Source: Candidatus Scatousia excrementigallinarum (GTDB lineage: Bacteria; Cyanobacteriota; Vampirovibrionia; Gastranaerophilales; Gastranaerophilaceae). From it: a stretch of DNA of 38,598 nucleotides. Of this stretch, positions 6,924-24,828 are shown one piece after another; position 1 is the stretch's first letter, and each line of letters begins with the position of its first letter. The stretch covers positions 1-38,598 of the forward strand of contig DVIU01000117.1 in assembly GCA_018711035.1 (NCBI GenBank). Reading direction: 5' to 3'. A program made the translations under genes and the position numbers. The notes below the pieces were generated by a model. It was not told where the DNA came from, did no database searches, and was given only the letters and a program-made list of their open reading frames with translations.

Positions 6924-8558
6924 ATGATAACAACAAATAAATTAACCGTTAGATTCGGATCACAAACCCTGTTTGAAAATGTTTCGATAAAATTTGTACC
7001 GGGAAACTGCTATGGTGTGATAGGAGCAAACGGAGCTGGAAAGAGTACACTTTTGAGGGTTATATCAGGCGAGCTTGAACCTACATCCGGAGAGGTAAGC
7101 ATTTCAAAAGGGCAGCGAATTGCAGTCTTGAAACAGAACCATTTTGAATTTGATGAATACAGCGTAATTGATACGGTAATTATGGGTCATAAGAAGCTTT
7201 ATGACATAATGAAAGAGCGTGACGCATTATATGCAAAACCTGATTTTAGCGATGAAGATGGGATTAAGGCGGCGCATCTGGAAGAAGAATTTGCAGAACT
7301 TGACGGGTGGCAGGCAGAATCAATGGCTGCTTCTTTGTTATCGGAATTGGGAATTTCAGATGAATTGCACTATTCGCAAATGAAAGACCTTGCAGGAAGC
7401 GAAAAGGTGCGGGTATTGCTTGCGCAGGCACTTTTCGGGAACCCTGATATTCTGCTTCTGGACGAGCCGACAAACCACCTCGACATAAATACTATTACGT
7501 GGCTTGAAGAATTTTTAATTGATTTTCCTAACCTTGTCATTGTTGTATCGCATGACAGAAAATTTTTGGACAGAGTCTGCACGCATATGGCAGATATTGA
7601 TTACAAAAATATTCAGTTATACACAGGTAATTACTCATTCTGGTCTGAGGCAAGCCAGTTGATTAAAAAACAAAAAGAAGAACAGAATAAGAAAACCGAA
7701 GAAAAAATGGAAGAATTAAAGGCGTTTATTGCACGTTTCAGCGCAAATGCCTCTAAGGCAAAACAAGCGACTTCAAGAAAGAATATGCTGGACAAACTTT
7801 CTCTGGAAGAAATTAAGCCATCATCAAGACAGTATCCGAGAATAAGATTTAACTACCAAAAAATTCCCGGAAAAGACGTGCTGACCGTTGATAAACTTAC
7901 AAAATCCGTTGACGGGGAGCTTTTGTTTAAGAATTTCAGTTTTGAAGTTTATCAGGGAGAAAAAATTGCGTTTATTGCAAAAGACCCGTTAATTATTTCA
8001 ACCCTGTTTGATATTCTTGCAGGAAAAGTACAGCCTGATTCGGGAGAAGTAAAATGGGGAGTTACGGCGACTGTTTCTTATTTTCCTAAAGACAACAACT
8101 TCTATTTTGAATCAGATAAGACTATTATGCAATGGCTTGCACAGTATTCGCCTGACCAGCATGTAAACTTTTTACGCGGCTATCTTGGCAGAATGCTATT
8201 CTCCGGTGACGATGCCGATAAGAAAGTCAATGTGCTTTCAGGTGGTGAAAAAGTCCGTTGTATTCTGGCAAAAATGATGATTGAAGAATCCAACGTAATG
8301 ATTTTCGACGAGCCGACAAACCACCTTGACCTGGAATCAATTACCGCCCTGAATAACTCTATAATTGATTATACAGGAACAGTACTGTTTACATCTCAGG
8401 ATTACCAGTTTATCCAGACTGTTGCTGATAGAATTATCGAGATTTCACCGAACGGATATATAAACAGCAGAAGCAAATACGAGGATTACCTCGCAAATCC
8501 TGATATTATTAAGCGTCGAAACGACTTATACAGGATGGCTGTGAAAAAGCAGGGTTAA
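6924..8558 (+). CDS. ABC-F family ATPase (YbiT-like), second Walker A degenerate
   Basis: 544 residues with two ATP-binding cassettes and no membrane segments, so an ABC-F translation factor acting on the ribosome. Cassette 1 is complete: Walker A GANGAGKSTL (K40), signature LAGSEKVRVLLAQAL and Walker B ILLLDEPTNHLD. The linker from about 245 to 300 is Lys/Glu-rich. Cassette 2 has signature LSGGEKVRCILAK and Walker B VMIFDEPTNHLD. However, its Walker A reads AKDPLIISTL, so the ATP-binding lysine is replaced by Ile358. AAAGGAAAG precedes the ATG. It ends convergently with, and overlaps by 50 nt, the phosphopantetheinyl transferase. Resistance-type ABC-F proteins look similar, and a ribosome-protection role cannot be read from sequence alone. 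Confidence 0.9.
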   Translation: MITTNKLTVRFGSQTLFENVSIKFVPGNCYGVIGANGAGKSTLLRVISGELEPTSGEVSISKGQRIAVLKQNHFEFDEYSVIDTVIMGHKKLYDIMKERDALYAKPDFSDEDGIKAAHLEEEFAELDGWQAESMAASLLSELGISDELHYSQMKDLAGSEKVRVLLAQALFGNPDILLLDEPTNHLDINTITWLEEFLIDFPNLVIVVSHDRKFLDRVCTHMADIDYKNIQLYTGNYSFWSEASQLIKKQKEEQNKKTEEKMEELKAFIARFSANASKAKQATSRKNMLDKLSLEEIKPSSRQYPRIRFNYQKIPGKDVLTVDKLTKSVDGELLFKNFSFEVYQGEKIAFIAKDPLIISTLFDILAGKVQPDSGEVKWGVTATVSYFPKDNNFYFESDKTIMQWLAQYSPDQHVNFLRGYLGRMLFSGDDADKKVNVLSGGEKVRCILAKMMIEESNVMIFDEPTNHLDLESITALNNSIIDYTGTVLFTSQDYQFIQTVADRIIEISPNGYINSRSKYEDYLANPDIIKRRNDLYRMAVKKQG

Positions 8559-9033
8559 CCGAAACGGCTGTGAGCATAAAATTATCTTGAAAAACACAGG
8601 AATAAGAAGCCTGTGTTTTTTGCTGGAGCTTAATTTCGGCCTCATATTCAGTCCAGAATTTATAAAAGTCTTCCGTGTTTCGAAAATCTTTGTTATATCT
8701 TGCAGAAAGTGCCTCTAAATCACGCGGCTTCATTTCCTCAATATCAAGTCCGCACGCAACATTATCAAACGCAGCGGCAACATATTTTCCGCTGTGCGAG
8801 ATACTAAAAAACATTCCGCCGTTTTTGAATTTCGGTTTATCGTTTTCAACAATAATTTCAGTATCAGCCATAATGTAGAATTTTTTTGCAACAGATTTAA
8901 CAAGATAACGGCCGAGGGAATATTGTACAAAACGCTTAACAGATTTAAATTCACGTCCGTCAGTGAAGCGGCGTAAAAAATCCGTGTCATGCGATTTTAA
9001 AAATTCTTCGGAGTTAATATAATATATTTCCAT
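8509..9033 (-). CDS. Sfp-type 4'-phosphopantetheinyl transferase
   Basis: 174 residues, short for Sfp-type enzymes (about 200-240). It carries the core: MFFSISHSGKYVAAAF (the F-S-x-S-H-S-x-x-x block), CGLDIEEMKPRD with the Mg-binding G-x-D-I-E, and FYKFWTEYEAEIKL, a variant of the W-x-x-K-E-A-x-x-K motif. It transfers phosphopantetheine from CoA to the serine of carrier proteins. The two ACPs of the polyene cluster 11 kb away are plausible clients. No Shine-Dalgarno precedes the ATG, and TATGAT ends 6 nt upstream, suggesting a leaderless transcript. The 512-aa gene lies only 19 nt upstream. A strong hairpin terminator (8590-8620) lies inside the coding region near the 3' end. Confidence 0.85.
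   Translation of the reverse strand: MEIYYINSEEFLKSHDTDFLRRFTDGREFKSVKRFVQYSLGRYLVKSVAKKFYIMADTEIIVENDKPKFKNGGMFFSISHSGKYVAAAFDNVACGLDIEEMKPRDLEALSARYNKDFRNTEDFYKFWTEYEAEIKLQQKTQASYSCVFQDNFMLTAVSVNPAFSQPSCISRFDA
8590..8620 (+). terminator. Perfect hairpin terminator inside the 3' end of the PPTase gene
   Basis: AAAAACACAGG and CCTGTGTTTTT form an 11-bp perfect stem with a 9-nt loop, followed by T on the plus strand. It suits the ABC-F transcript, 31 nt past its stop codon. On the minus strand the same stem is also followed by a T-run, so it may attenuate the PPTase mRNA before its stop codon. Confidence 0.75.
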
Positions 9034-13488: not shown

Positions 13489-14367
13489 TTATTCTTCCTC
13501 AAAAAGGTCGTAAAAATGAAAAAATTGCAATGGTGCTTTGTATGTCAGATTTTCGATAAACAAAGAAAAATCTTTTTGCATTTGCAAAGCCCTTTGTGAT
13601 TTTGGAACATCAGAGTGAAATTTTTGTAAATAAACGCGGTACTTTTCGCCCTCACGCAGTGCACAGACAAAATAAACAGGACTCTCCATAAGCTGCGCGA
13701 ATTTGAATGTTCCGAGCGGAAACAGAACCCTCTTTCCGAACAATTCAACCTCTGAATTGCTGCTGTTTTTCGAGGTTCTATCGCCTGCCATAATCACTAT
13801 TTCTCCCGCCGAAAGCTTCTCTTTAATCTCTATGGATGTTTCTATATTTATATCTTCAACAGGATAGGCCACGGCAGGAGTTTCAATTTCAATACTTTTT
13901 ATAAAATTATTAAAAATTTTGCACTGCTCCGCAGATAAAAATACATTCACACGACGCTCAGGATATTTATCCATAAACGAACGCATTATGTCTATATTCC
14001 CCAGGTGTGAACAGATAAAAAATACGCCTTTTTCAAAATCATTTATCAGAGAATTTTTAACTTCTTCACTGTCAAAAATAATTCTCTGATAATCGTAATT
14101 CCCCGAAAAAACCTCCATTCTGTCTATGAGGGAATAAGAGTACTCGAGAAAATGTTTGAATTGATTCTTTAAAGATGGTTTAAGCCCGATAATTTTTAAA
14201 AATTTGGCAGAATTTCTGCGCGGCCCCCGTCCGCCCAAAAACGCGAAAACAGTAACAAAAAACGCCACCAAACGCACAGCTCTTTTACCAAAAATTTTAT
14301 AAATATACCATGTAAGAAAAAGCCTTTTCTCTCCCGCGGCCTGTTCTTTTAACTGATACCATCTCAT
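13489..14367 (-). CDS. LpxL/HtrB-like acyltransferase of the aryl-polyene cluster
   Basis: 292 residues with one N-terminal hydrophobic segment (VRLVAFFVTVFAFLGG). The catalytic H-x4-D appears in FICSHLGNIDIMRSF, followed by VIMAGDRTS and FPLGTFKFAQLMESPVYFVC, typical of the lipid-A late-acyltransferase family. In known APE clusters an LpxL-like domain, often fused to a glycosyltransferase 2 domain (ApeJ), is thought to attach the acyl polyene to a lipid. Here only the acyltransferase part is present. It overlaps the exporter stop codon by ATGA, so the two are translationally coupled. Confidence 0.85.
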   Translation of the reverse strand: MRWYQLKEQAAGEKRLFLTWYIYKIFGKRAVRLVAFFVTVFAFLGGRGPRRNSAKFLKIIGLKPSLKNQFKHFLEYSYSLIDRMEVFSGNYDYQRIIFDSEEVKNSLINDFEKGVFFICSHLGNIDIMRSFMDKYPERRVNVFLSAEQCKIFNNFIKSIEIETPAVAYPVEDINIETSIEIKEKLSAGEIVIMAGDRTSKNSSNSEVELFGKRVLFPLGTFKFAQLMESPVYFVCALREGEKYRVYLQKFHSDVPKSQRALQMQKDFSLFIENLTYKAPLQFFHFYDLFEEE

Positions 14368-16469
14368 TTTTCCTGCTCCGGATAATTAAACAACAAACTC
14401 GACAGGTATGAAACACTAAGTCCTACTGAAAGAATGAATCCCAGAGAACTTATGAGTTTAAAACTCGTAAATGCAAGAAGTAAAAAAGAAAATACACTCG
14501 TTGCACAACTTAAAAGCACAGCGTCAGAAGAATTTTTAACTCCACCCGCTCTGAATACCGAATAATCCAAACCGAAGCCTATTATCAAAAATATTGCAAG
14601 CACATGGAACAAATTTATCGGCTGCGCGGTAAGGCTTAATACCCCTATTGAAAATGCTCCCGCGAGAATAGAAGGAGTTAAAATCTTTAAGGCCGTACTC
14701 GGCTTATATATAAAAGACAGAAGAAACAGAAGCAGTATAAACACCGGCACCAGCATTTTTAAACAAGACGTCCGGCATTCTTTAATTCTTTCTGTTATAT
14801 CACATTGAACATCCACATATTTACCGCCGTTTTGTGTAATGATTTCAGGACGGTCGAAGTCGTACAAAATCATTACCGAAGTATTTTCTCCTATAAGAAA
14901 ATCTTTGAACGGAGAATTTTTATCAAATTTAACATAATCCGACGGAGCTTTTTCACTCAAAAGTTTTTTAATATCTTCTTCCGGTAAAAATGCTGCATAA
15001 CTTTTAAGAGAATTTTTATACAAAGCTTTTCTGAGTTCAAAATTTCTTTTCTGCTGCTTCTCAGACGGAATAAATTTGCTTAGTGCCTGAAAATTCACGT
15101 CCTGCAAATTTCTTGAAACCCACTCTTCCCTGTGCAGCATATCCTGAAAGTCACGTCCTTCAATAACGGCAAAAGAAATCTTTTTGTCTCCGCCCGTTAC
15201 AGCAGCAAAAAGCTTTTCCGAAGCAAGAAGCTTCTTTGAAGGAACATACATATTACGAATATCATCGTTAAACTTTATAAAAAACATTCCGCCTAAAGAT
15301 ACCGCCAGAATAATAAGCGCAAAAATCTTCTTAACACGCTCACTCATCATAAAATCTATATTCCGCGGGTGTGAATTGAATTTTAATAAAGGATAAAACA
15401 ACACTACAATAGAATATACACTGAAAAGGCCCGTCATTGTAAAAACAGAAATCTGTCTTAAAAGTTCCACCCCCGAAAACAAAAGCACCGCAAATGCACT
15501 GACAGTTGTAACCATACTGACAGTCAGGCTTTTCATTATTTTTGACAAATCTTTCTCGATAAAATAATGCAGTGAATAATCAATACAAATCCCTATTAGC
15601 GTCGTTGAAAAAACAAACGTCAAGACATGTATCGACGGAAAAACAATTGACGCTGCCAGAAATCCCGACAACATCCCGAGTCCCAAACTTATGCCTGTAG
15701 GAATCAAAAGTTTTATATTCCTGAAATAAAAATAACAAAGCCCGATTACAAATAAAGATGACAGAATACATATTATATTAATTTCTCTCATTGATTTTGA
15801 GCTTGCATAATATGAATGCACAGGCGCACCCGTAAGATAAACCTCTGTACCGTCTTTAGAAAGTTGTGACTGCAAACGGGTAAGAGTTTTGATTTCTCCG
15901 TTTAAAAGTTCAGGTGAAAGTGCTGTATCATTTTTGACTTCCAGAGAAAGTATTTTATAGTATTTGTCATTATAAATAACCGAATCCGGCTCACCCTCCC
16001 CGAAAGATTTTACATAGTCAGTAAACAGCATAAAAGGGTCTTGATTTAACGGCATAAGCATAAAGCCAAAGGGGTCATACAGTCTTACGAATGATTCTGC
16101 AATAACCTCATTGTACTTCCTGTTCTCAAGCAAGAGTGCTGTATGCTGCGACAAAAGACTTTTATAATAGAGTTTATAAGTTTCAAGAATTTTGCCTGCA
16201 TTAAAATCCTCAATGTAAAACGTATCTTTATCAACAGAATTTAAAAATTCCAATGCTGTACGCGACGCATTTTCAGAACTTTCGGCTTCGACAAGAACAT
16301 TTATTCTTGAAGAATATCTGCCGCTCAGTTTCACTACAGTTTCATCTGCGGAATTATCGGAAAAAACAGCGCGCAGAATATTGGTTTCTGTTTTCACGGG
16401 ATGAGTAAAGACAAATACCGCTGCTGCTGCAAATATTAATATAAATATAATTCTTAAAAATCTTTTCAT
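14364..16469 (-). CDS. MMPL/RND-family exporter (ApeM-like)
   Basis: 701 residues with the RND half-transporter pattern twice: one N-terminal transmembrane helix, a periplasmic loop, then a five- to six-helix block, repeated. The TM4 motifs GICIDYSLHYFIEKD (about residue 290) and GFGLDYSVFRAGG (about residue 635) hold the conserved G-x-x-x-D-Y. Proteins of this type accompany a LolA-like protein in APE clusters and are believed to move the aryl-polyene lipid from the inner membrane towards the outer membrane. Length fits. It is preceded by the LolA-like gene after 32 nt and overlaps the acyltransferase. I infer the substrate from context alone. Confidence 0.88.
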   Translation of the reverse strand: MKRFLRIIFILIFAAAAVFVFTHPVKTETNILRAVFSDNSADETVVKLSGRYSSRINVLVEAESSENASRTALEFLNSVDKDTFYIEDFNAGKILETYKLYYKSLLSQHTALLLENRKYNEVIAESFVRLYDPFGFMLMPLNQDPFMLFTDYVKSFGEGEPDSVIYNDKYYKILSLEVKNDTALSPELLNGEIKTLTRLQSQLSKDGTEVYLTGAPVHSYYASSKSMREINIICILSSLFVIGLCYFYFRNIKLLIPTGISLGLGMLSGFLAASIVFPSIHVLTFVFSTTLIGICIDYSLHYFIEKDLSKIMKSLTVSMVTTVSAFAVLLFSGVELLRQISVFTMTGLFSVYSIVVLFYPLLKFNSHPRNIDFMMSERVKKIFALIILAVSLGGMFFIKFNDDIRNMYVPSKKLLASEKLFAAVTGGDKKISFAVIEGRDFQDMLHREEWVSRNLQDVNFQALSKFIPSEKQQKRNFELRKALYKNSLKSYAAFLPEEDIKKLLSEKAPSDYVKFDKNSPFKDFLIGENTSVMILYDFDRPEIITQNGGKYVDVQCDITERIKECRTSCLKMLVPVFILLLFLLSFIYKPSTALKILTPSILAGAFSIGVLSLTAQPINLFHVLAIFLIIGFGLDYSVFRAGGVKNSSDAVLLSCATSVFSFLLLAFTSFKLISSLGFILSVGLSVSYLSSLLFNYPEQEK

Positions 16470-16501: not shown

Positions 16502-17026
16502 TTAATAAGCGGAGCATTCTGTAAAGTTTATTTTCATATTACCGCTCTTAGGGGTTCTTATATCAATCTGGTCGATATATTTTCCTCCTGCTATAATAAT
16601 AGACTCCATAATTCCGCTGGCCTTGGACGCGACCTTGGGTTTTAAAGCCAATCTCCAGGAAACACCGTTTCTAATATAAAACAGTTCAAAATTATTATTC
16701 AGATACGTGTAATCTTTTCTTGCTATTGCAGCAATCAAAGCACCGAGTTTTTTGTCCTTGTCGGTTGCATAAACCGTAGTATTGACAACAGGATAGAGAG
16801 TTTCAAACACAACGCCGCTGGAAGCATTAAACCTGAAACGTCCTCCGGATTCGATTACTGTATCTGTATTAGGAATGGTCTTATTCTGCGTAAACTTACA
16901 GGCAACAGCCTTATATTGCGGTATAAAAACACTGTCAGGCCTTGCCAGATGCTGAAAAATCAAATCCTGCGCCATGGCACTTCCGCTAATCAAAATTCCC
17001 GCAGCTAAGAATAAAAATTTCTTCAT
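16502..17026 (-). CDS. LolA-like periplasmic carrier (ApeL-like)
   Basis: 174 residues with a signal peptide (MKKFLFLAAGILISGSAMAQ). After it comes the LolA-like core: FTQNKTIPNTDTVIESGGRF then VVFETLYPVVNTTVYATDKD, the beta-sheet half-barrel that shields a lipid. In APE clusters this protein is placed with the MMPL exporter and is inferred to carry the polyene lipid across the periplasm. Whether it can also carry lipoproteins cannot be told. It lies 2 nt from the thioesterase stop and start pair, so it is translated with its neighbours. Confidence 0.82.
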   Translation of the reverse strand: MKKFLFLAAGILISGSAMAQDLIFQHLARPDSVFIPQYKAVACKFTQNKTIPNTDTVIESGGRFRFNASSGVVFETLYPVVNTTVYATDKDKKLGALIAAIARKDYTYLNNNFELFYIRNGVSWRLALKPKVASKASGIMESIIIAGGKYIDQIDIRTPKSGNMKINFTECSAY

Positions 17027-17028
17027 AA

Positions 17029-17442
17029 TTAAAGATTACAACAAGCAAGCTTTTCTTTCAAACGTTCTGGAGCCGAGTACAAACTTTCTTTTGAATGTAT
17101 ATCAATACAAATCTGCATTGTTTTAGCCCTGAAAAGCTTTTCGCCTGTTAAAGCGTCATAAATCATATATTTTATAATAAGACAAGGTTCGATTTCCTCT
17201 ACAGAAGAAACTACTTTTAACTTTTGGTTAAATGTGCAAGGTTTCATAAACTTTAAATCCATAGTGGCAACAGGGTAGGCAATCCCGTCCTCGCGCATAT
17301 TATCGTAATCGTAGCCTATTTTTGAGAGTAAATCACAGCGCGCGGTTTCAAGATATTTAATATAATTTCCGTGCCAGACCACGTTCATAGGGTCTAAATC
17401 GTAAAACTGCACAGTTATAAAAGTCTCAGCCTCAAATTTCAT
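17029..17442 (-). CDS. Acyl-ACP/CoA thioesterase of the 4HBT/YbgC family (ApeK-like)
   Basis: 137 residues, a single hot-dog domain. VQFYDLDPMNVVWHGNYIKYLETARCDLL holds the family's catalytic Asp (D-x-D/M) and the N-Y motif of 4HBT thioesterases. It probably hydrolyses stalled or finished acyl-ACP in polyene synthesis. Its position between the ligase and the LolA-like gene matches ApeK in other APE clusters. Confidence 0.87.
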   Translation of the reverse strand: MKFEAETFITVQFYDLDPMNVVWHGNYIKYLETARCDLLSKIGYDYDNMREDGIAYPVATMDLKFMKPCTFNQKLKVVSSVEEIEPCLIIKYMIYDALTGEKLFRAKTMQICIDIHSKESLYSAPERLKEKLACCNL

Positions 17443-17465: not shown

Positions 17466-19007
17466 TTACTTTACAAATATACCTGAAGAAAATATACTGT
17501 CATCAGCCAGATAGGTAAATTCTACAGATTTTTCTTTATTGATGAGTTTTAAAGTAATTTTAATTTCAGGTTTCATTATATTTGAAAATTTAACTTTTTT
17601 AACCTCATCATATGGTAATTCAATACCGAAAACATCTTCTGCAAAAAATCTTGCATAATAAAGCTGCACCACCCCGGGCAAAACCGGTGTTATGTCAAAA
17701 TGTCCGCGTAAAAAATTCGAATTGCGTCTGAATAAAAGTTCAATTTCCGCGCCGGAGGAATCGGCACGGCGAGAGAAAACAAACGGCATAGATAAATTTG
17801 ACCCGAAAATTTTTCGAAGTTTTGCAGAATCAATTTTACCGCTCGCTGTTTTCGGGATTTCATCTAAAATCCGCCATTTTTTTGGGAGAATTTCGCTGTA
17901 TCTGCCAAGAAATTTTTTAAAATCCTGCGGCTCTTTTGCAACATCATGACAGACTACAGCGCAGCATAGTTTTTCGTCATACATAAAACAATGACAATCT
18001 CCAACAGCTTCATGTTTGCAGAGATTATTTTCCAGTTCATCCAGCGAAATTCTTTTTTCCTGAATTTTTACCAGTCTGTCCGTACGTTTTTTCAATACAA
18101 ATTCTCTATCGGAAACTTTTTCAATAATATCATTCAAAATCATTTCACCGGCAGGAAAGAAATCCGACATTACAACAATTCGTCCGTCTACAGCCGGTTC
18201 AACACAAACGCCGTTTATCAATGTAAACTTCTCACCGCCGCGTTTACAGGCAATATTTCCCGTCTCTGTGCTTCCGTAAATGTCAATTACATCGGAAAAT
18301 TTTGCAAAATACGAATAAGTTTCGTCTTTAAGTTTTGCGCCCGCAAGAAAAATCTTTTCAGGAGCATTTTCAAATACAAAATCATACTTTGCAAGCTTCT
18401 CCATAAAAGAAGGCGTTGAAATTAAAATATACTCCCCATTAATATCAAATTGCTCCGGAAATTCAATTTTCTTTTGATTTATTTTGTAATTTCCGTAAAA
18501 AGGCAAAATAAAATTAAACGCAACTCCGTAACTGTGCGCAGATGAAGTAGTAGACGCAATTACAGTTTTGTCGGAAAGTGCAAATTCATCAATTGTAGCC
18601 TGCGCTTCAACTTCAAGATTATAAAGAGTTTTACCGATATTTTTTGGAGTTCCGGTAGACCCTGATGTAAAAAGATTTATCATAATCCCATGCGGGTCAT
18701 ATTCGCCCTCAAAAACCCCCTCACCGGCTATTGGTTCATCAGGAAGAATATATTCAAACACGAGCTGGTTAAGACGCGTTTTGTCGGTTAAAAGATAAAT
18801 ATTCTTACGCGCAAACACTGCCGCAAAAAAATTCACCGCAAAATCAAAGTAACTTTCACATAGCAAAACTACATTTTCAATATCAGAATTTTCAAACTCT
18901 TTTTTCTGACCGAGTACAAATTTTTTGAATTCTCCGAAAGTAACATCGGGATTGATAAATAGAGTCTGTGTATCGTATTTTTGCGTAAAGAATTTTTCCA
19001 GAATCAT
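17466..19007 (-). CDS. apeH: Aryl-ACP ligase fused to a hot-dog dehydratase (ApeH-ApeI fusion)
   Basis: 513 residues. Residues ~1-400 are an ANL adenylating enzyme: TSGSTGTPK (114-122), YGSTE (244-248), KRTDRLVKIQEKRISLDEL (A8) and TASGK with K391. It should load an aromatic acid starter, 4-hydroxybenzoate in E. coli and Xenorhabdus APEs, onto a cluster ACP. Residues ~410-513 are a FabA/FabZ-like hot-dog: FLRGHFDITPVLPGVVQLYY. This has the catalytic-type His436, but the Glu/Asp position 14 residues later is Tyr450. In the APE systems I know, ligase and ApeI are separate proteins. The ORF has no frameshift or internal stop. It overlaps the small membrane protein by ATGA. Confidence 0.85.
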   Translation of the reverse strand: MILEKFFTQKYDTQTLFINPDVTFGEFKKFVLGQKKEFENSDIENVVLLCESYFDFAVNFFAAVFARKNIYLLTDKTRLNQLVFEYILPDEPIAGEGVFEGEYDPHGIMINLFTSGSTGTPKNIGKTLYNLEVEAQATIDEFALSDKTVIASTTSSAHSYGVAFNFILPFYGNYKINQKKIEFPEQFDINGEYILISTPSFMEKLAKYDFVFENAPEKIFLAGAKLKDETYSYFAKFSDVIDIYGSTETGNIACKRGGEKFTLINGVCVEPAVDGRIVVMSDFFPAGEMILNDIIEKVSDREFVLKKRTDRLVKIQEKRISLDELENNLCKHEAVGDCHCFMYDEKLCCAVVCHDVAKEPQDFKKFLGRYSEILPKKWRILDEIPKTASGKIDSAKLRKIFGSNLSMPFVFSRRADSSGAEIELLFRRNSNFLRGHFDITPVLPGVVQLYYARFFAEDVFGIELPYDEVKKVKFSNIMKPEIKITLKLINKEKSVEFTYLADDSIFSSGIFVK

Positions 19008-19405
19008 TTTTGATATTTTTTCCTTAAAACTACTCTTACTATATATTCAACCGCAAACATAACCCCGATTGCAACATAAGAGATAAATCCGTTATATAAT
19101 GCCCACCATTTCTCAGCCATAAATACCGTTGCAATTGAGATTAAAAGGTTACAAAACATAAACATGCACCACACGTAAGTTAATCTGCGGGTGTAAATTC
19201 TCGTAAAATCATCCAGTCCGCCTTCGATAGCTTTAGCAATTTTTTGAATAACGGTTTCTTTTGCAAAAAGCGATGTGAAAAACAGCATAAACACAGTCAG
19301 ATTTGCCGCAACAGGATAAAATTTCACCGCAAAAAACTTAGTATAATGAAATACCACAATGACAAAAAGAGTTACAAACAGTGGAATCAAAAACTTAAAT
19401 TTCAT
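19004..19405 (-). CDS. Small membrane protein of aryl-polyene clusters (ApeG/COG4648-like)
   Basis: 133 residues with four hydrophobic segments: FLIPLFVTLFVIVVF, LTVFMLFFTSLFA, VWCMFMFCNLLISIATVFMA and FISYVAIGVMFAVEYIVRVVL. The charged loop between the second and third (ALEGG-type, IAKAIEGGLDDFTRIYTRRLTYVW) is typical of COG4648. Its role in APE biosynthesis is not known to me. Overlaps on both sides (ACP stop, ligase start) show tight co-expression. Confidence 0.75.
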   Translation of the reverse strand: MKFKFLIPLFVTLFVIVVFHYTKFFAVKFYPVAANLTVFMLFFTSLFAKETVIQKIAKAIEGGLDDFTRIYTRRLTYVWCMFMFCNLLISIATVFMAEKWWALYNGFISYVAIGVMFAVEYIVRVVLRKKYQK

Positions 19406-19656
19406 TTCAAAAGTTCTTCGATTGCATTCACCACATCATCAATTGTGCGGATTTTTTTGAAATTTTCCGGCGCAATCTTTTTATCTGTAAAATACTGAAG
19501 TTTTACTGCTAAATCAACCGCATCAATGCTGTCGAGTTCCAAATCCTCAAAAAGGTTTGCCTCAGGTTTAATTAAATCTTCGCTGATTTCAAAATCTTCA
19601 ACGAGGATTTCGGTTAATTTATTCAAAATTTCTTCGCGTGTAAATTCTTTAGCCAA
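19402..19656 (-). CDS. apeF: Acyl carrier protein (polyene ACP, second)
   Basis: 84 residues with the carrier motif DLELDSIDAVDLAVKL. Ser43 should receive phosphopantetheine. Its DSID sequence, as opposed to the DSLD of fatty-acid ACP, is usual for APE carriers. It overlaps the other ACP gene by 8 nt. Which of the two carries starter and which extender is not decidable here, and the ApeE/ApeF names follow gene order only. Confidence 0.9.
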   Translation of the reverse strand: MAKEFTREEILNKLTEILVEDFEISEDLIKPEANLFEDLELDSIDAVDLAVKLQYFTDKKIAPENFKKIRTIDDVVNAIEELLK

Positions 19657-19906
19657 CAGTGTTACTCCTGATAAAATCCGCCAGTGTTTTTACGGAATAG
19701 AAATGCTTTGCGTTTTCTTTTTTGTCTGATGATAAAGTAAGATTATACTTTTTCTTCAAAGCCATACCGAGTTCAAGCGCGTCAATTGAATCCAATCCCA
19801 GCCCGTCTACAAAAAGTGCTTCTTCATCTTTTATATCAGAAGCTTTTATGTCTTCAAGCTCCAGAACTTTTATTATTAATTCTTTTATTTCATTTTCCAA
19901 AGTCAT
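19649..19906 (-). CDS. apeE: Acyl carrier protein (polyene ACP, first)
   Basis: 85 residues from ATG 19906 (MTLENEIKELIIKVL). I prefer this start because TAGGA lies upstream at workable distance and the ORF-track start at 19945 is a TTG. DGLGLDSIDALELGMALKKKY has the phosphopantetheine Ser40. Two ACPs in tandem is the usual APE arrangement. The nearby Sfp-type PPTase is a candidate activator. Confidence 0.9.
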   Translation of the reverse strand: MTLENEIKELIIKVLELEDIKASDIKDEEALFVDGLGLDSIDALELGMALKKKYNLTLSSDKKENAKHFYSVKTLADFIRSNTVG

Positions 19907-19952
19907 TTGCTTAATTCCTATAATAAATTTATAACTTAATTGCAAAATAAAG

Positions 19953-20681
19953 TCAATTTATTGCTTCTTTAATACTTTCCGTAATATGGTTACGGAGTTT
20001 TATTTCAGAGAGTTCAGGGGCAAAGTCGGAAATCTTAATTTCCGGCATAACCGTTAATTTGTAATTTACGGTTTTATTGCCTGCGTCGAGCGGAAAATGA
20101 TTTTTTATCAAAAAAGGATAATCCGTTTCTATTTTCACCGGAACAATATCAACGCCCGCTGCAATGGCAATCTGTGCGGCACCTTTGTGAATTTTAACTT
20201 CTTCACCCGGGAGCGTTCTTGTACCTGTCGGAAATATTATAATATTATATCCGTCTTTCAAAGCTTCCACGGCAGATTGTTTAAATATTTCAGGGTCTAT
20301 ATCGTTAATAATATAAAGCGATTTGACAATATTTCTCATAACAGGATTTTTTAAAAGACTTTTTTTGGCAAGACAGAGCGATAACGGCATATTTCCTATA
20401 AGAAGAATTATATCAATAAAACTCGGGTGCGACGCCACAACAACTTTCCCCTTTATATCTGAAAGGTTTCCGTTAATATGCACCTTAATTTCCTTAGAAT
20501 TTTCCATTACTGAAATAAAAAACTTCCACGAATTTTTAATTATCTGTGCAAACTTTTCGCGGCGTTCTTTGCCTTTGTATTTTAACGACAGCACAGGAAA
20601 AAGCACGCAGCCGATATACAATGCACCGAGTGCAAATAAAATCATTTCCAGTAAAACAAGAAGTCCCCTATAAATCCTCAT
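19953..20681 (-). CDS. PlsC-type lysophospholipid acyltransferase (ApeD-like)
   Basis: 242 residues with an N-terminal membrane helix (LLVLLEMILFALGALYIGCVLF). Motif I is VVASHPSFIDIILL (H-x4-D) and motif III is IIIFPTGTRTLPGE. It transfers an acyl group from ACP or CoA to a glycerol or sugar lipid. In APE clusters this gene is conserved between the chain-length factor and the ACPs, as here, and it may anchor the pigment in the membrane. It overlaps the chain-length-factor gene by 14 nt. Confidence 0.87.
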   Translation of the reverse strand: MRIYRGLLVLLEMILFALGALYIGCVLFPVLSLKYKGKERREKFAQIIKNSWKFFISVMENSKEIKVHINGNLSDIKGKVVVASHPSFIDIILLIGNMPLSLCLAKKSLLKNPVMRNIVKSLYIINDIDPEIFKQSAVEALKDGYNIIIFPTGTRTLPGEEVKIHKGAAQIAIAAGVDIVPVKIETDYPFLIKNHFPLDAGNKTVNYKLTVMPEIKISDFAPELSEIKLRNHITESIKEAIN

Positions 20682-21261
20682 TTTTCTTTACCACATACAA
20701 ATCGCTTACAAATGTGTCGTTTTTCCCTTCCAGAAATGCTGTCAAATCTTCAAACCCATCATTCACAGGCAAATTTTCAGAGTTTTCGCACAACAAAAAT
20801 TTACCCTTATTATTCACAGAAGTCAACACCGAAACACTTTTTATCCCGCCAAAGCTTTCTGCATAACAGAAAAGAGATTCTCCTGCTAAAATACTTTCCA
20901 GAAAGCCTGCCGCAACAGACTTTTCACCGGCAGAAATTGAATTGTAACCTGTTTTAACCCCTTCAAGCAGTGAAAAAAGTCCGACCGTAGCATTATGAAC
21001 AGATGAACTGAACCCCGCAGGCGAAACCTCTCCGTCTTCTTTGCGCTGGTTTATAAGCTTCACAACCCGCTCGAAATCTCCGTAACACGACGAAAAAACA
21101 AGGTTAGGACTGCCGCCGTCATACGCTCCGTAGAGAGTATAAAGCCCCGCACGCCCGAATGTGTTGAGTTTTCGCCGCAACATCATTGGAATAAATGAAA
21201 CATCAATTTCATCACCCGTTACATAAGAAAACTTTTTTATATCAAAAACTACTTCCTTCAT
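20668..21261 (-). CDS. apeC: Ketosynthase-like chain-length factor (ApeC-like)
   Basis: 197 residues matching the short beta-ketoacyl-synthase-like family (PF13723). LNTFGRAGLYTLYGAYDGGS, VFSSCYGDFERVVKLI, and SSSVHNATVGLFSLLEGVKT mark the half-sized thiolase fold. The active-site Cys environment of true ketosynthases (T-A-C-S) is replaced by SSSVHNA, so it should be non-catalytic and pair with the ApeO-type synthase to set chain length. It is the first gene of the minus operon. A TATAAT lies only a few nt before the ATG (21265-21270) and there is no ribosome-binding site, so the exact start is uncertain. The plus operon encoding its partner begins 73 nt away on the other strand. Confidence 0.85.
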   Translation of the reverse strand: MKEVVFDIKKFSYVTGDEIDVSFIPMMLRRKLNTFGRAGLYTLYGAYDGGSPNLVFSSCYGDFERVVKLINQRKEDGEVSPAGFSSSVHNATVGLFSLLEGVKTGYNSISAGEKSVAAGFLESILAGESLFCYAESFGGIKSVSVLTSVNNKGKFLLCENSENLPVNDGFEDLTAFLEGKNDTFVSDLYVVKKNEDL

Positions 21262-21334
21262 GATATTATATTAACACAGATGTCTGGAAAAATTATTCAA
21301 TTTTAAACACGCAGCGTGACATCGGTTTTGAGGA
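21262..21334. promoter_or_regulatory. Divergent promoter region of the two aryl-polyene operons
   Basis: A 73-nt spacer separates the chain-length-factor gene (minus) and ketosynthase gene (plus). Minus -10 candidates are TATAAT or TTAATA next to the ATG. CAGA-TG-TCTG (21277-21286) is a small palindrome between them. No regulator gene lies in the cluster. Shared control of both operons is likely from the short distance. Confidence 0.45.
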
Positions 21335-22861
21335 ATGATGATTATTACAATAACTAAAACAAGCGCGATTTGCTCGGCAGGAGAAAATTTAGACGAAATT
21401 TTCTCTAATCTTGCTGCGGGAAAATTGACGGATTTAAAAATTACCGCAGAACTGCCGGAGATTAGTAATGAAAAATACAATCTCAGGTGTAATCAAATTC
21501 TTCTCCACTGCGTAAATCAAATCAGTTCGGAAATCGAAACACTTATAAAAAAATACGGCAGGAAAAATGTCGGCGTGGTTATCGCAACAACAAACACAGG
21601 AATTGATAAGTTTGAAGAAAACGGCGACGCTGAATTTTTAAAAATGAGCAACCCCGCCGAATTTCTCAAAGATTATCTCGGGCTTGAAGGTTTTTTCTGC
21701 GGTGTATCAACTGCTTGTTCATCAGGTATTAAAGTTTTTTCAACTGCCAAAAGGCTTATGGAAAGCGGTGTCTGTGACGCTGTAATCGCAGGCGGAACAG
21801 ATGAAATTTCAAAGTTTCCGACAGCAGGATTTGCCGCACTTGAAGTTCTCTCAAACGAGCGTTCCATACCTTTTTCAAAAAACCGAAAAGGTATGAACAT
21901 AGGAGAAGCCGGCGCAATATTTTTGCTTGAAAAAGACTCCTGCGGTATACAAATTCTCGGCATAGGCGAAACCTCAGATGCCTACCATGCAGCAACTCCT
22001 GACCCAGAAGGCTCGCAGGCAGCAAATGCAATGAAACTTGCACTGGATGAAGCCGGCCTCAAGCCTCAGGATATAGATTACATTAATCTTCACGGTACCG
22101 GAACCGTTTCCAACGATATTATGGAAGCAAATGCGGTTTACAAAATTTTCGGCTGCGGAACCCAGGTAAGTTCGACAAAACCGCTCACGGGGCATTGTCT
22201 CGGGGCTTCTGCGAGTATTGAAGCTGCCATTTGCTGTGCAGCTCTGGAGAAAAATATTCTTCTGCCGCATATTTACGACGGAGAATATGACAACACGCTT
22301 CCACCGCTTAATCTTGTACATAAAGGTCAAAAAGCCCCGCGTCTGGAAAATGTTATGTGCAATGCTTTCGGTTTCGGCGGCACAAACGCTGTTCTTATTC
22401 TCGGCAAGCAAAAACCACATAAACATTACGATTTGGAAAATATTCTCCCGCACAATCACCCGATGATTTTGATTGATGATATTGATGAAGTTAATCTCGG
22501 CGAAGGCTATGTATGCGCAAGAGTAACCATACGTGAAGACAGCCTTTTCTTTGACAGGGAACTTGACGGAATTTCATACATTACGGGAATTGAGTTTATG
22601 GCACAAACTATCGGCTGCTACGCTTATTTTAAACGCGGCGGTGGCAACCCGAAAATAGGTTTTCTTCTCGGAACACGTTCTTACAAATGCGACATTGACA
22701 GGTTTAAAATTGGTGAAACATACATAATTAAGGCAAAAGAAATTTTCGGCGATAATCAGCTTGTCTCGTTTGAGTGTTTTATTTATAATAATAATATAGA
22801 GTGCGCAAGTGCAATGGTAAATGTTTACCAGCCCGAAAACGCCTCTGAATTTCTGGAATAA
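21335..22861 (+). CDS. apeO: Ketosynthase fused to a hot-dog dehydratase (ApeO-ApeP fusion)
   Basis: 508 residues. Residues 1-360 are a complete KAS-II-type ketosynthase with Cys128 (GVSTACSSG), His253 (NLHGTGTVSND), His287 (TGHCLGAS) and the GFGGTNA end. Residues ~366-508 are a FabZ-like hot-dog domain: LPHNHPMILIDDIDEV, then ISYITGIEFMAQTIGCYAYF with Glu420 at the position of the FabZ catalytic Glu. The FabZ G-H-F block reads DREL, so the catalytic His is missing. ApeO elongates ACP-bound chains with malonyl-ACP. ApeP dehydrates the hydroxy intermediate with ApeI. A single unbroken ORF joins both. GAGGA precedes the ATG pair. The second ATG at 21338 is equally possible. Confidence 0.88.
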   Translation: MMIITITKTSAICSAGENLDEIFSNLAAGKLTDLKITAELPEISNEKYNLRCNQILLHCVNQISSEIETLIKKYGRKNVGVVIATTNTGIDKFEENGDAEFLKMSNPAEFLKDYLGLEGFFCGVSTACSSGIKVFSTAKRLMESGVCDAVIAGGTDEISKFPTAGFAALEVLSNERSIPFSKNRKGMNIGEAGAIFLLEKDSCGIQILGIGETSDAYHAATPDPEGSQAANAMKLALDEAGLKPQDIDYINLHGTGTVSNDIMEANAVYKIFGCGTQVSSTKPLTGHCLGASASIEAAICCAALEKNILLPHIYDGEYDNTLPPLNLVHKGQKAPRLENVMCNAFGFGGTNAVLILGKQKPHKHYDLENILPHNHPMILIDDIDEVNLGEGYVCARVTIREDSLFFDRELDGISYITGIEFMAQTIGCYAYFKRGGGNPKIGFLLGTRSYKCDIDRFKIGETYIIKAKEIFGDNQLVSFECFIYNNNIECASAMVNVYQPENASEFLE

Positions 22862-22873
22862 ACGGAGAGTGTG

Positions 22874-23605
22874 ATGGAAGAAAAACAGGTCTTGATTACC
22901 GGTTCAAGCCGCGGTATCGGCAGAGAAACAGCCTTGTATCTCGCAAAAAACGGATATTACATAGTACTTCATTGTAATAAAAATACAAAAATGGCAGAAG
23001 CAGTTTTAGCCGAAATCAAAGCAGCAGGCGCAAAGGGAAGAATTTTGCAGTTCAACGTCAAAGACCGTGAAGAATGCAGAAAAGTTCTTGAAAAAGATAT
23101 TGAAGCAAACGGCGTTTATTACGGTGTAGTTCTGAATGCCGGAATTGCACGCGACAATGTTTTTCCTGTTATGGAAGACAGTGAATGGGATGATGTTATA
23201 GGCACCAATCTCGGCGGGTTTTATAATGTTTTAAAACCGATTGTAATGCCGATGATTGAAGCAAGAATTAAGGGAAGGATTATTGCAATGTCTTCTGTTT
23301 CGGGACTTTGCGGAAACCGCGGACAGGTAAATTACAGTGCTTCCAAGGCAGGAATTATCGGTGCAGTAAAAGCATTGAGTCTTGAACTTGCAAAACGCGG
23401 AATTACGGTCAACGCAATCGCTCCTGGGGTTATCGAGACTGATATGACGCAGGATTTGCCTGTAGATGAGGTTAGGAAAATGATTCCTATGAAACGCTTC
23501 GGCAAACCGAAGGAAGTTGCCAGCCTTGTTAATTATCTAATGAGTGAGGACGCCTCTTATATCACGGGTCAGGTTATTTCTGTAAACGGAGGATTGTATC
23601 TGTGA
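22874..23605 (+). CDS. apeQ: 3-ketoacyl-ACP reductase (FabG-like, ApeQ)
   Basis: 243 residues, a short-chain dehydrogenase/reductase: TGSSRGIGRETA (NADPH loop), LNAGIARDN, MSSVSGLCGNRGQVNYSASKAG with the Ser-Tyr-Lys catalytic set, and the C-terminal YITGQVISVNGG of FabG. It reduces the 3-keto group after each elongation. I use ATG 22874 because GGAG lies 6 nt before it, whereas the ORF-track start at 22871 is a GTG. It sits 12 nt after the ketosynthase fusion and overlaps the next ketosynthase by 4 nt. Confidence 0.92.
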   Translation: MEEKQVLITGSSRGIGRETALYLAKNGYYIVLHCNKNTKMAEAVLAEIKAAGAKGRILQFNVKDREECRKVLEKDIEANGVYYGVVLNAGIARDNVFPVMEDSEWDDVIGTNLGGFYNVLKPIVMPMIEARIKGRIIAMSSVSGLCGNRGQVNYSASKAGIIGAVKALSLELAKRGITVNAIAPGVIETDMTQDLPVDEVRKMIPMKRFGKPKEVASLVNYLMSEDASYITGQVISVNGGLYL

Positions 23606-24828
23606 AAAGAGTTGTAGTTACAGGAATGTCGCAAATAAGCCCGCTCGGAGCCAATCGTGAGGACGCTTTTAAACGTCTTCTCGAAATGAAAAACCGCGTA
23701 AAATACCTGCCTGAACTTGAACAGTACACAAGGCTCAATACAAAACTTGCTGCACCGGCAGATGAATTTGTAATCCCTTCGCATTACAACAGAAAAGTTC
23801 TTCGCACAATGGGGCGTGTTGGAGTTCTAAGCGTTGCAAGCGCGGAAGATGCATTGAAAGACGCCGGACTTCTCGGAAATGATATTATTACAAACGGTCA
23901 GACAGGTGTAAGCTACGGGTCTTCGTCAGGGTCACTGGACAGTATTATAGAATTTTATTCAATGATGGTTGACAAAGAAGTTAAAGGGGTTACGTCGGGA
24001 AGTTATGTAAAAATGATGGCTCAGACCTGCTGTGTTAATATATCGCTTTATTTCAAAACAACCGGACGCCTTATACCGACATCAACCGCCTGTACTTCGG
24101 GTTCTATGGGAATAGGATACGCTTATGAAGCGATTAAAAACGGCTACCAGACAGTTATGATTGCGGGCGGAGCAGATGAACTTCATCCGACGCAAATTGC
24201 AATTTTCGATACGCTTTATGCCACCAGTCAGAAAAATTCCGCGCCCGAACTTACTCCGTCCCCTTTTGATAAAGACAGAGACGGTCTGGTAATCGGCGAA
24301 GGTGCCGGAACTATGATTCTTGAAGAATACGAACACGCTAAAAAACGCGGCGCAAAAATTTACGCGGAAGTCATTGGCTTTGGCACAAGCACCGACGGCA
24401 CTCATATCACCAGCCCTAACCGCGATAAAATGAAATCCGCGCTTGAGCTTGCCCTGAAAGACGCCAACATTTCTCCCGATGAGATAGGTTATGTTAATGC
24501 TCACGGCACAGCAACAATTCAAGGCGATTTAGCAGAATCAAATGCGACTTACGATATTTTTAAACGACCTGTTCCGACAAGTTCCATAAAAAGCTATACA
24601 GGCCACACTCTAGGCGCCTGCGGAGCAGTAGAAGCAATCTTAACTCTTGATATGACTCACAAAAACTGGTTCTGCCCGACAATCAATCTCGCCACCGTTG
24701 ATGAAGAATGCGGGAAACTCGATTATATCAAAAGCGAAGGCCGTGAAATTAATACAAACATTGTTATGTCAAATAACTTTGCTTTCGGCGGCATTAATAC
24801 TTCACTGATATTTAAGGTACATATTTAA
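23602..24828 (+). CDS. apeR: Beta-ketoacyl-ACP synthase (FabF-like, ApeR)
   Basis: 408 residues, full KAS-II layout: TSTACTSGSMG (Cys), NAHGTATIQGD (His), KSYTGHTLGACGAVEA (His) and NNFAFGGINTSL. In APE systems this second, homodimeric ketosynthase makes the first condensation or short intermediates, and the ApeO:ApeC pair continues. The start overlaps the reductase stop (GTGA). Its 3' end overlaps the convergent periplasmic-protein gene by 17 nt. No terminator is visible there. Confidence 0.9.
   Translation: MKRVVVTGMSQISPLGANREDAFKRLLEMKNRVKYLPELEQYTRLNTKLAAPADEFVIPSHYNRKVLRTMGRVGVLSVASAEDALKDAGLLGNDIITNGQTGVSYGSSSGSLDSIIEFYSMMVDKEVKGVTSGSYVKMMAQTCCVNISLYFKTTGRLIPTSTACTSGSMGIGYAYEAIKNGYQTVMIAGGADELHPTQIAIFDTLYATSQKNSAPELTPSPFDKDRDGLVIGEGAGTMILEEYEHAKKRGAKIYAEVIGFGTSTDGTHITSPNRDKMKSALELALKDANISPDEIGYVNAHGTATIQGDLAESNATYDIFKRPVPTSSIKSYTGHTLGACGAVEAILTLDMTHKNWFCPTINLATVDEECGKLDYIKSEGREINTNIVMSNNFAFGGINTSLIFKVHI

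Follow-up and report, generated by a model that had tools for sequence, protein, structure and literature searches.

A probable split dehydratase of the ApeI/ApeP type, with both halves fused to larger enzymes, in an aryl-polyene-type gene cluster of a Gastranaerophilales genome

The window analyzed here, a stretch of 38,598 nucleotides from the Gastranaerophilales genome of the uncultured gut bacterium Candidatus Scatousia excrementigallinarum, encodes two dehydratase-like hot-dog domains, each at the C terminus of a larger enzyme. Neither domain has the catalytic histidine and the catalytic acid on the same chain, as the FabZ/FabA homodimers do. FabZ and FabA resemble ApeI and ApeP in their hot-dog fold and in taking the histidine from one subunit and the glutamate or aspartate from the other; however, they carry both residues on each chain and have two active sites, whereas the chains of ApeI and ApeP supply one residue each. 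The FabZ of the window's own genome, encoded on another contig, likewise has both residues on one chain (GHFPGNPIMPGVLQLEAMAQ).

Aryl-polyene-type gene cluster

Both genes lie within a cluster spanning ~14.4 to 24.8 kb of the window, in which genes for KS:CLF, a ketoreductase (KR), a second ketosynthase (KS), two acyl carrier proteins (ACPs), a ligase, a thioesterase, and an exporter are grouped together. By gene content this cluster is of the aryl-polyene (APE) type, with an aryl polyene, a pigment, as its predicted product. No description of an aryl-polyene cluster in Gastranaerophilales was found in the literature searched.

The minus strand encodes an ApeM-like RND/MMPL exporter (14364..16469), with HpnN/HAE3 matches below cut-off and assigned by its position in the cluster, and an ApeL-like LolA-type protein (16502..17026), assigned from a weak match below cut-off (NF053544; E value, 0.0013) and likewise from its position. 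These are followed on the same strand by an ApeK-like thioesterase (17029..17442; PF13279), the ligase discussed below, two acyl carrier proteins (19402..19656 and 19649..19945; both PF00550), an ApeD-like lysophospholipid acyltransferase (19953..20681; PF01553), and an ApeC-like chain-length factor (CLF) (20668..21261; PF13723) that matches 7f28_A and 6qsp_B. On the plus strand, the ketosynthase discussed below is followed by an ApeQ-like ketoreductase of the FabG family (22871..23605; PF13561 and NCBIfam FabG) and an ApeR-like ketosynthase (23602..24828; PF00109/PF02801), which scores 642.6 bits against NF006587 (cut-off, 470). A 4'-phosphopantetheinyl transferase-like gene with weak AusB/AcpT matches lies over 3 kb away from the cluster (8509-9033, minus strand) and may encode the loader of the cluster's acyl carrier proteins.

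Complementary halves of a predicted catalytic pair

The ligase, a protein of 513 amino acids encoded at 17466-19007 (minus strand), comprises an ApeH-like acyl-ACP ligase (AMP-binding) domain (17781..19007), with PF00501 and PF13193 above cut-off, fused upstream of an ApeI-like hot-dog domain that occupies residues ~410 to 513 (17466..17780). The latter belongs to the ApeI-like family PF22818 (32.9 bits; curated Pfam cut-off, 28.5). Its sole histidine is His436 (codon 17700..17702, minus strand), which lies within the GHF motif and is the predicted catalytic histidine of a shared site. At the position of the FabZ glutamate, 14 residues past His436, there is Tyr450 (codon 17658..17660, minus strand), and thus the aspartate usually found there in proteobacterial ApeI is absent.

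The second domain ends a ketosynthase of 508 amino acids (21335-22861, plus strand). The ApeO-like ketosynthase portion (21335..22414) contains the Cys-His-His motifs TACSSG, HGTGT, and GHCLGA, and its closest solved match is 6qsp_A, which is ApeO (E value, 7.5e-68). The fused ApeP-like hot-dog domain, residues 367 to 508 (22433..22861, plus strand), scores 51.5 bits against the ApeP-like family PF22817 (curated Pfam cut-off, 27). Its Glu420 (codon 22592..22594, plus strand), in the motif GIEFMAQ, is predicted to supply the catalytic acid to the shared site, and both a residue check and alignment with FabZ found no histidine at or near its GHF position. The histidines of this domain are at 362, 364, 373, and 375. 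His373 is part of an LPHxxPM motif; since FabZ has LPHxxPM in addition to its GHF histidine, His373 is no substitute for the catalytic one.

The first-pass annotation had described exactly this arrangement, with histidine but tyrosine for glutamate on the ligase and glutamate without the GHF histidine on the ketosynthase, and its residue numbering proved exact when the codons were checked. A second histidine or acid at the right place in either domain, which would have given that domain a full pair, was also looked for, and neither was found.

Fold and probable pairing of the two domains

AlphaFold2 models of each single domain were built from alignments of natural relatives and searched against the PDB by fold. 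The models reached pLDDT values of 90.2 (ApeI domain) and 88.1 (ApeP domain), and their top matches were 6qsr_A (TM, 0.87) and 6qsr_B (TM, 0.84), respectively. The same two chains are the best hot-dog matches by sequence, with an identity of only ~25% for each half. Chains A and B belong to one PDB entry, 6QSR, titled "The Dehydratase Heterocomplex ApeI:P from Xenorhabdus doucetiae," and ApeI/ApeP has been described as heterodimeric with a single active site (PMC8041823). The earlier suggestion that ApeI and ApeP act as a heterodimer agrees with both sources.

The X. doucetiae pair consists of the same two hot-dog domains as found in the window, with histidine on ApeI and glutamate on an ApeP that is also without the GHF histidine. 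It differs in that X. doucetiae ApeI combines GHF with an acid-position aspartate, in contrast to the tyrosine of the window ApeI, and in that the crystallized chains are unfused (A, 119 amino acids; B, 180 amino acids), whereas both window halves are fused to larger enzymes. In Acinetobacter baumannii, as in the window, ApeI is fused to the ligase (ApeH-ApeI), in a heterodimer with a single site (PMC8041823), but ApeP is a separate protein (open frame of 149 amino acids) rather than part of the ketosynthase. A further possible parallel to ApeI:ApeP is the YcsD-FabZ complex (PDB 9a6k), for which we did not find a paper.

The window domains are thus very probably the unequal ApeI and ApeP halves of a hot-dog heterodimer of the FabZ kind, in which His436 and Glu420 form the only working site. 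The residues, family membership, fold of the individual domains, conservation, and co-occurrence come from the present analysis; we infer the pairing, geometry, and activity of this pair from 6QSR, FabZ, and the published work. By analogy with these homologous structures, the ligase-borne His436 would meet Glu420 of the ketosynthase-borne ApeP. Together they would remove water from the 3-hydroxyacyl-ACP that the ketosynthase (ApeO:ApeC) and the ketoreductase (ApeQ) would deliver in every round of extension. The mirror-image site would be dead, since Tyr450 would face an ApeP without histidine, leaving neither catalytic residue in place. Since each half is part of a larger enzyme, the heterodimer would presumably also link the starter ligase to KS:CLF.

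Alternatively, the hot-dog domains could self-associate and serve only in structure or substrate binding, with dehydration left to the housekeeping FabZ. The genome does encode a complete FabZ on another contig, and the ApeI relative 3ESI was solved and deposited alone. Nevertheless, 6QSR is a heterocomplex, and it would be odd for noncatalytic domains to keep the histidine and the glutamate in all relatives while losing the partner residues. Escherichia coli has FabZ and FabA as well. Despite these, the finished product in E. coli needs nearly all of the cluster genes (PMC8253772), and we consider dehydration by the housekeeping enzyme unlikely.

Conservation of the split

Alignment with the ApeI and ApeP families revealed the same division of histidine and glutamate in all relatives examined, and the split is therefore not a matter of chance. 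The His436 column is invariant, the GHF histidine being retained in all Gastranaerophilales ApeI domains counted. At the acid position, the 66 distinct Gastranaerophilales ApeI domains have tyrosine (38), phenylalanine (27), or asparagine (1), and 20 further loci have tyrosine (8), phenylalanine (7), or leucine (5), so that none of ~86 domains has aspartate or glutamate there. The ApeP glutamate is present in 92 of 92 distinct domains, and there is no histidine among the residues that fill the GHF segment. With this split in every relative and a published description of the single site, the earlier proposal that only an ApeI:ApeP pair would be active, with one site per dimer, is supported.

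The proteobacterial comparison comprised ten loci taken from a plasmid collection. In all ten, ApeP keeps the glutamate and lacks the GHF histidine. The acid position of ApeI is aspartate in eight and glycine in the other two, Acinetobacter junii (L161) and A. baumannii (L165), in which the acid is absent as in the window. Aspartate is therefore not a defining feature of ApeI. Conversely, X. doucetiae and most other proteobacterial ApeI proteins keep it, so the heterodimer scheme does not depend on loss of the acid. The possibility that joining ApeI to the ligase led to this loss was rejected because large fused frames of Cupriavidus, Caballeronia, and Burkholderia (565 to 679 amino acids) keep the aspartate.

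These counts bear on two further explanations. An ApeI homodimer might be active alone, with Tyr450 or another residue as the acid and ApeP as an accessory, and tyrosine is indeed the commonest residue at this position in the order. However, phenylalanine, leucine, asparagine, and, in Acinetobacter, glycine occur there too and cannot all act as an acid, while the ApeP glutamate is invariant; we give this possibility very little weight. The absence of one catalytic residue from each domain might instead indicate a decaying cluster in which both halves are drifting toward loss of function. This is equally improbable, given that the frames are open and the motifs conserved across dozens of species, with the glutamate in all 92 distinct ApeP domains and the histidine in every ApeI counted, and that the ketosynthase, ketoreductase, acyl carrier protein, ligase, and chain-length factor frames are intact.

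An ApeI without its own acid probably works. An aryl polyene has been made in vitro with a purified set that includes the A. baumannii ApeH(I)/ApeP (PMC8041823), and glycine occupies the acid position in the ApeI of a different A. baumannii strain.

Co-occurrence of ApeI and ApeP

ApeI was found within the fetched stretch at 58 of 80 ApeP loci. In the remaining 22 genomes, an ApeI domain was found on another stretch or contig in 20, nearly all in fused frames of ligase size, and none was seen in the other 2, which are drafts with possible gaps. Comparison of the ApeI and ApeP sets across 59 relatives showed agreement with two exceptions: in G004 the contig stops before the expected place of ApeP, and in G033 ApeI fell under the threshold of the first search yet is present in L102.

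In four loci (L096, L105, L106, and L109), the ApeI-ligase gene is downstream of and on the same strand as ApeP, not upstream on the other strand, and the halves of the cluster have therefore been rearranged. A large open reading frame directly adjoining the ApeC/ApeD genes of L098 (4376-7423, minus strand; 1,016 amino acids) was considered as a bigger ApeI fusion and rejected, as it encodes a Cas9-like protein with HNH_4 and a weak RuvC_III match. L107 has a frame of similar size in the same place; in both of these genomes the ApeI-ligase part is located elsewhere.

Fusion of the halves to neighboring enzymes

While the ApeI-ligase fusion occurs throughout the order, the ApeP-ketosynthase fusion is found at 15 of 80 loci (about a fifth of relatives). 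The window, too, has it, with a short linker (FGFGGTNAVLILGK-QKPHKHYDLEN-ILPH). Where the two are separate genes, the ketosynthase frequently terminates only a few bases from the ApeP start, and therefore loss of the stop codon could yield the fusion. On the ApeP tree, the fused state corresponds to six changes, at least five of them forced by well-supported branches, the alignment being short and the number approximate. The tree thus suggests that the fusion was gained or lost about five or six times.

The ketosynthase-ApeP junctions of three loci (L060, L071, and L119) have a longer Ser/Arg-rich linker of similar sequence (e.g., SPSSGFTAFSRNRREESRLFPS), which may derive from an inserted repeat. 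In Klebsiella aerogenes (L160:9974-11179), ApeP and the ketoreductase appear as a single open frame, annotated fabG_8. As ApeP there continues into the ketoreductase, it can fuse on either side.

Implications

That ApeI and ApeP form a heterodimer with one site is supported here but has already been published. What is new is the complete loss of the partner's residue in each half and the fusion of both halves to larger enzymes. In the literature searched, we found neither loss of the ApeI acid across the lineage, nor its different loss in Acinetobacter, nor the repeated fusion of ApeP to the ketosynthase; these details sharpen the known mechanism without changing it.

The one-site heterodimeric dehydratase is now extended to a gut lineage distant from the Proteobacteria in which it has been studied. 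The "spare" acid of ApeI can be lost: it is absent throughout the order and has been replaced by another residue in Acinetobacter. These losses are evidence from nature that the His(ApeI)-Glu(ApeP) site is the only one that matters. The natural double fusion is also useful for structural work on the full KS-CLF-DH-ligase assembly.

With ApeI on the starter ligase, ApeP on the ketosynthase, and neither expected to work alone, the split dehydratase might, as a tentative and rather doubtful reading, also be an obligatory clamp that holds the ligase and the ketosynthase together with the chain-length factor as a fixed complex. If so, this would be a type II system moving toward a type I-like assembly, and the repeated fusion of ApeP to its neighbor would reflect selection for a fixed complex.
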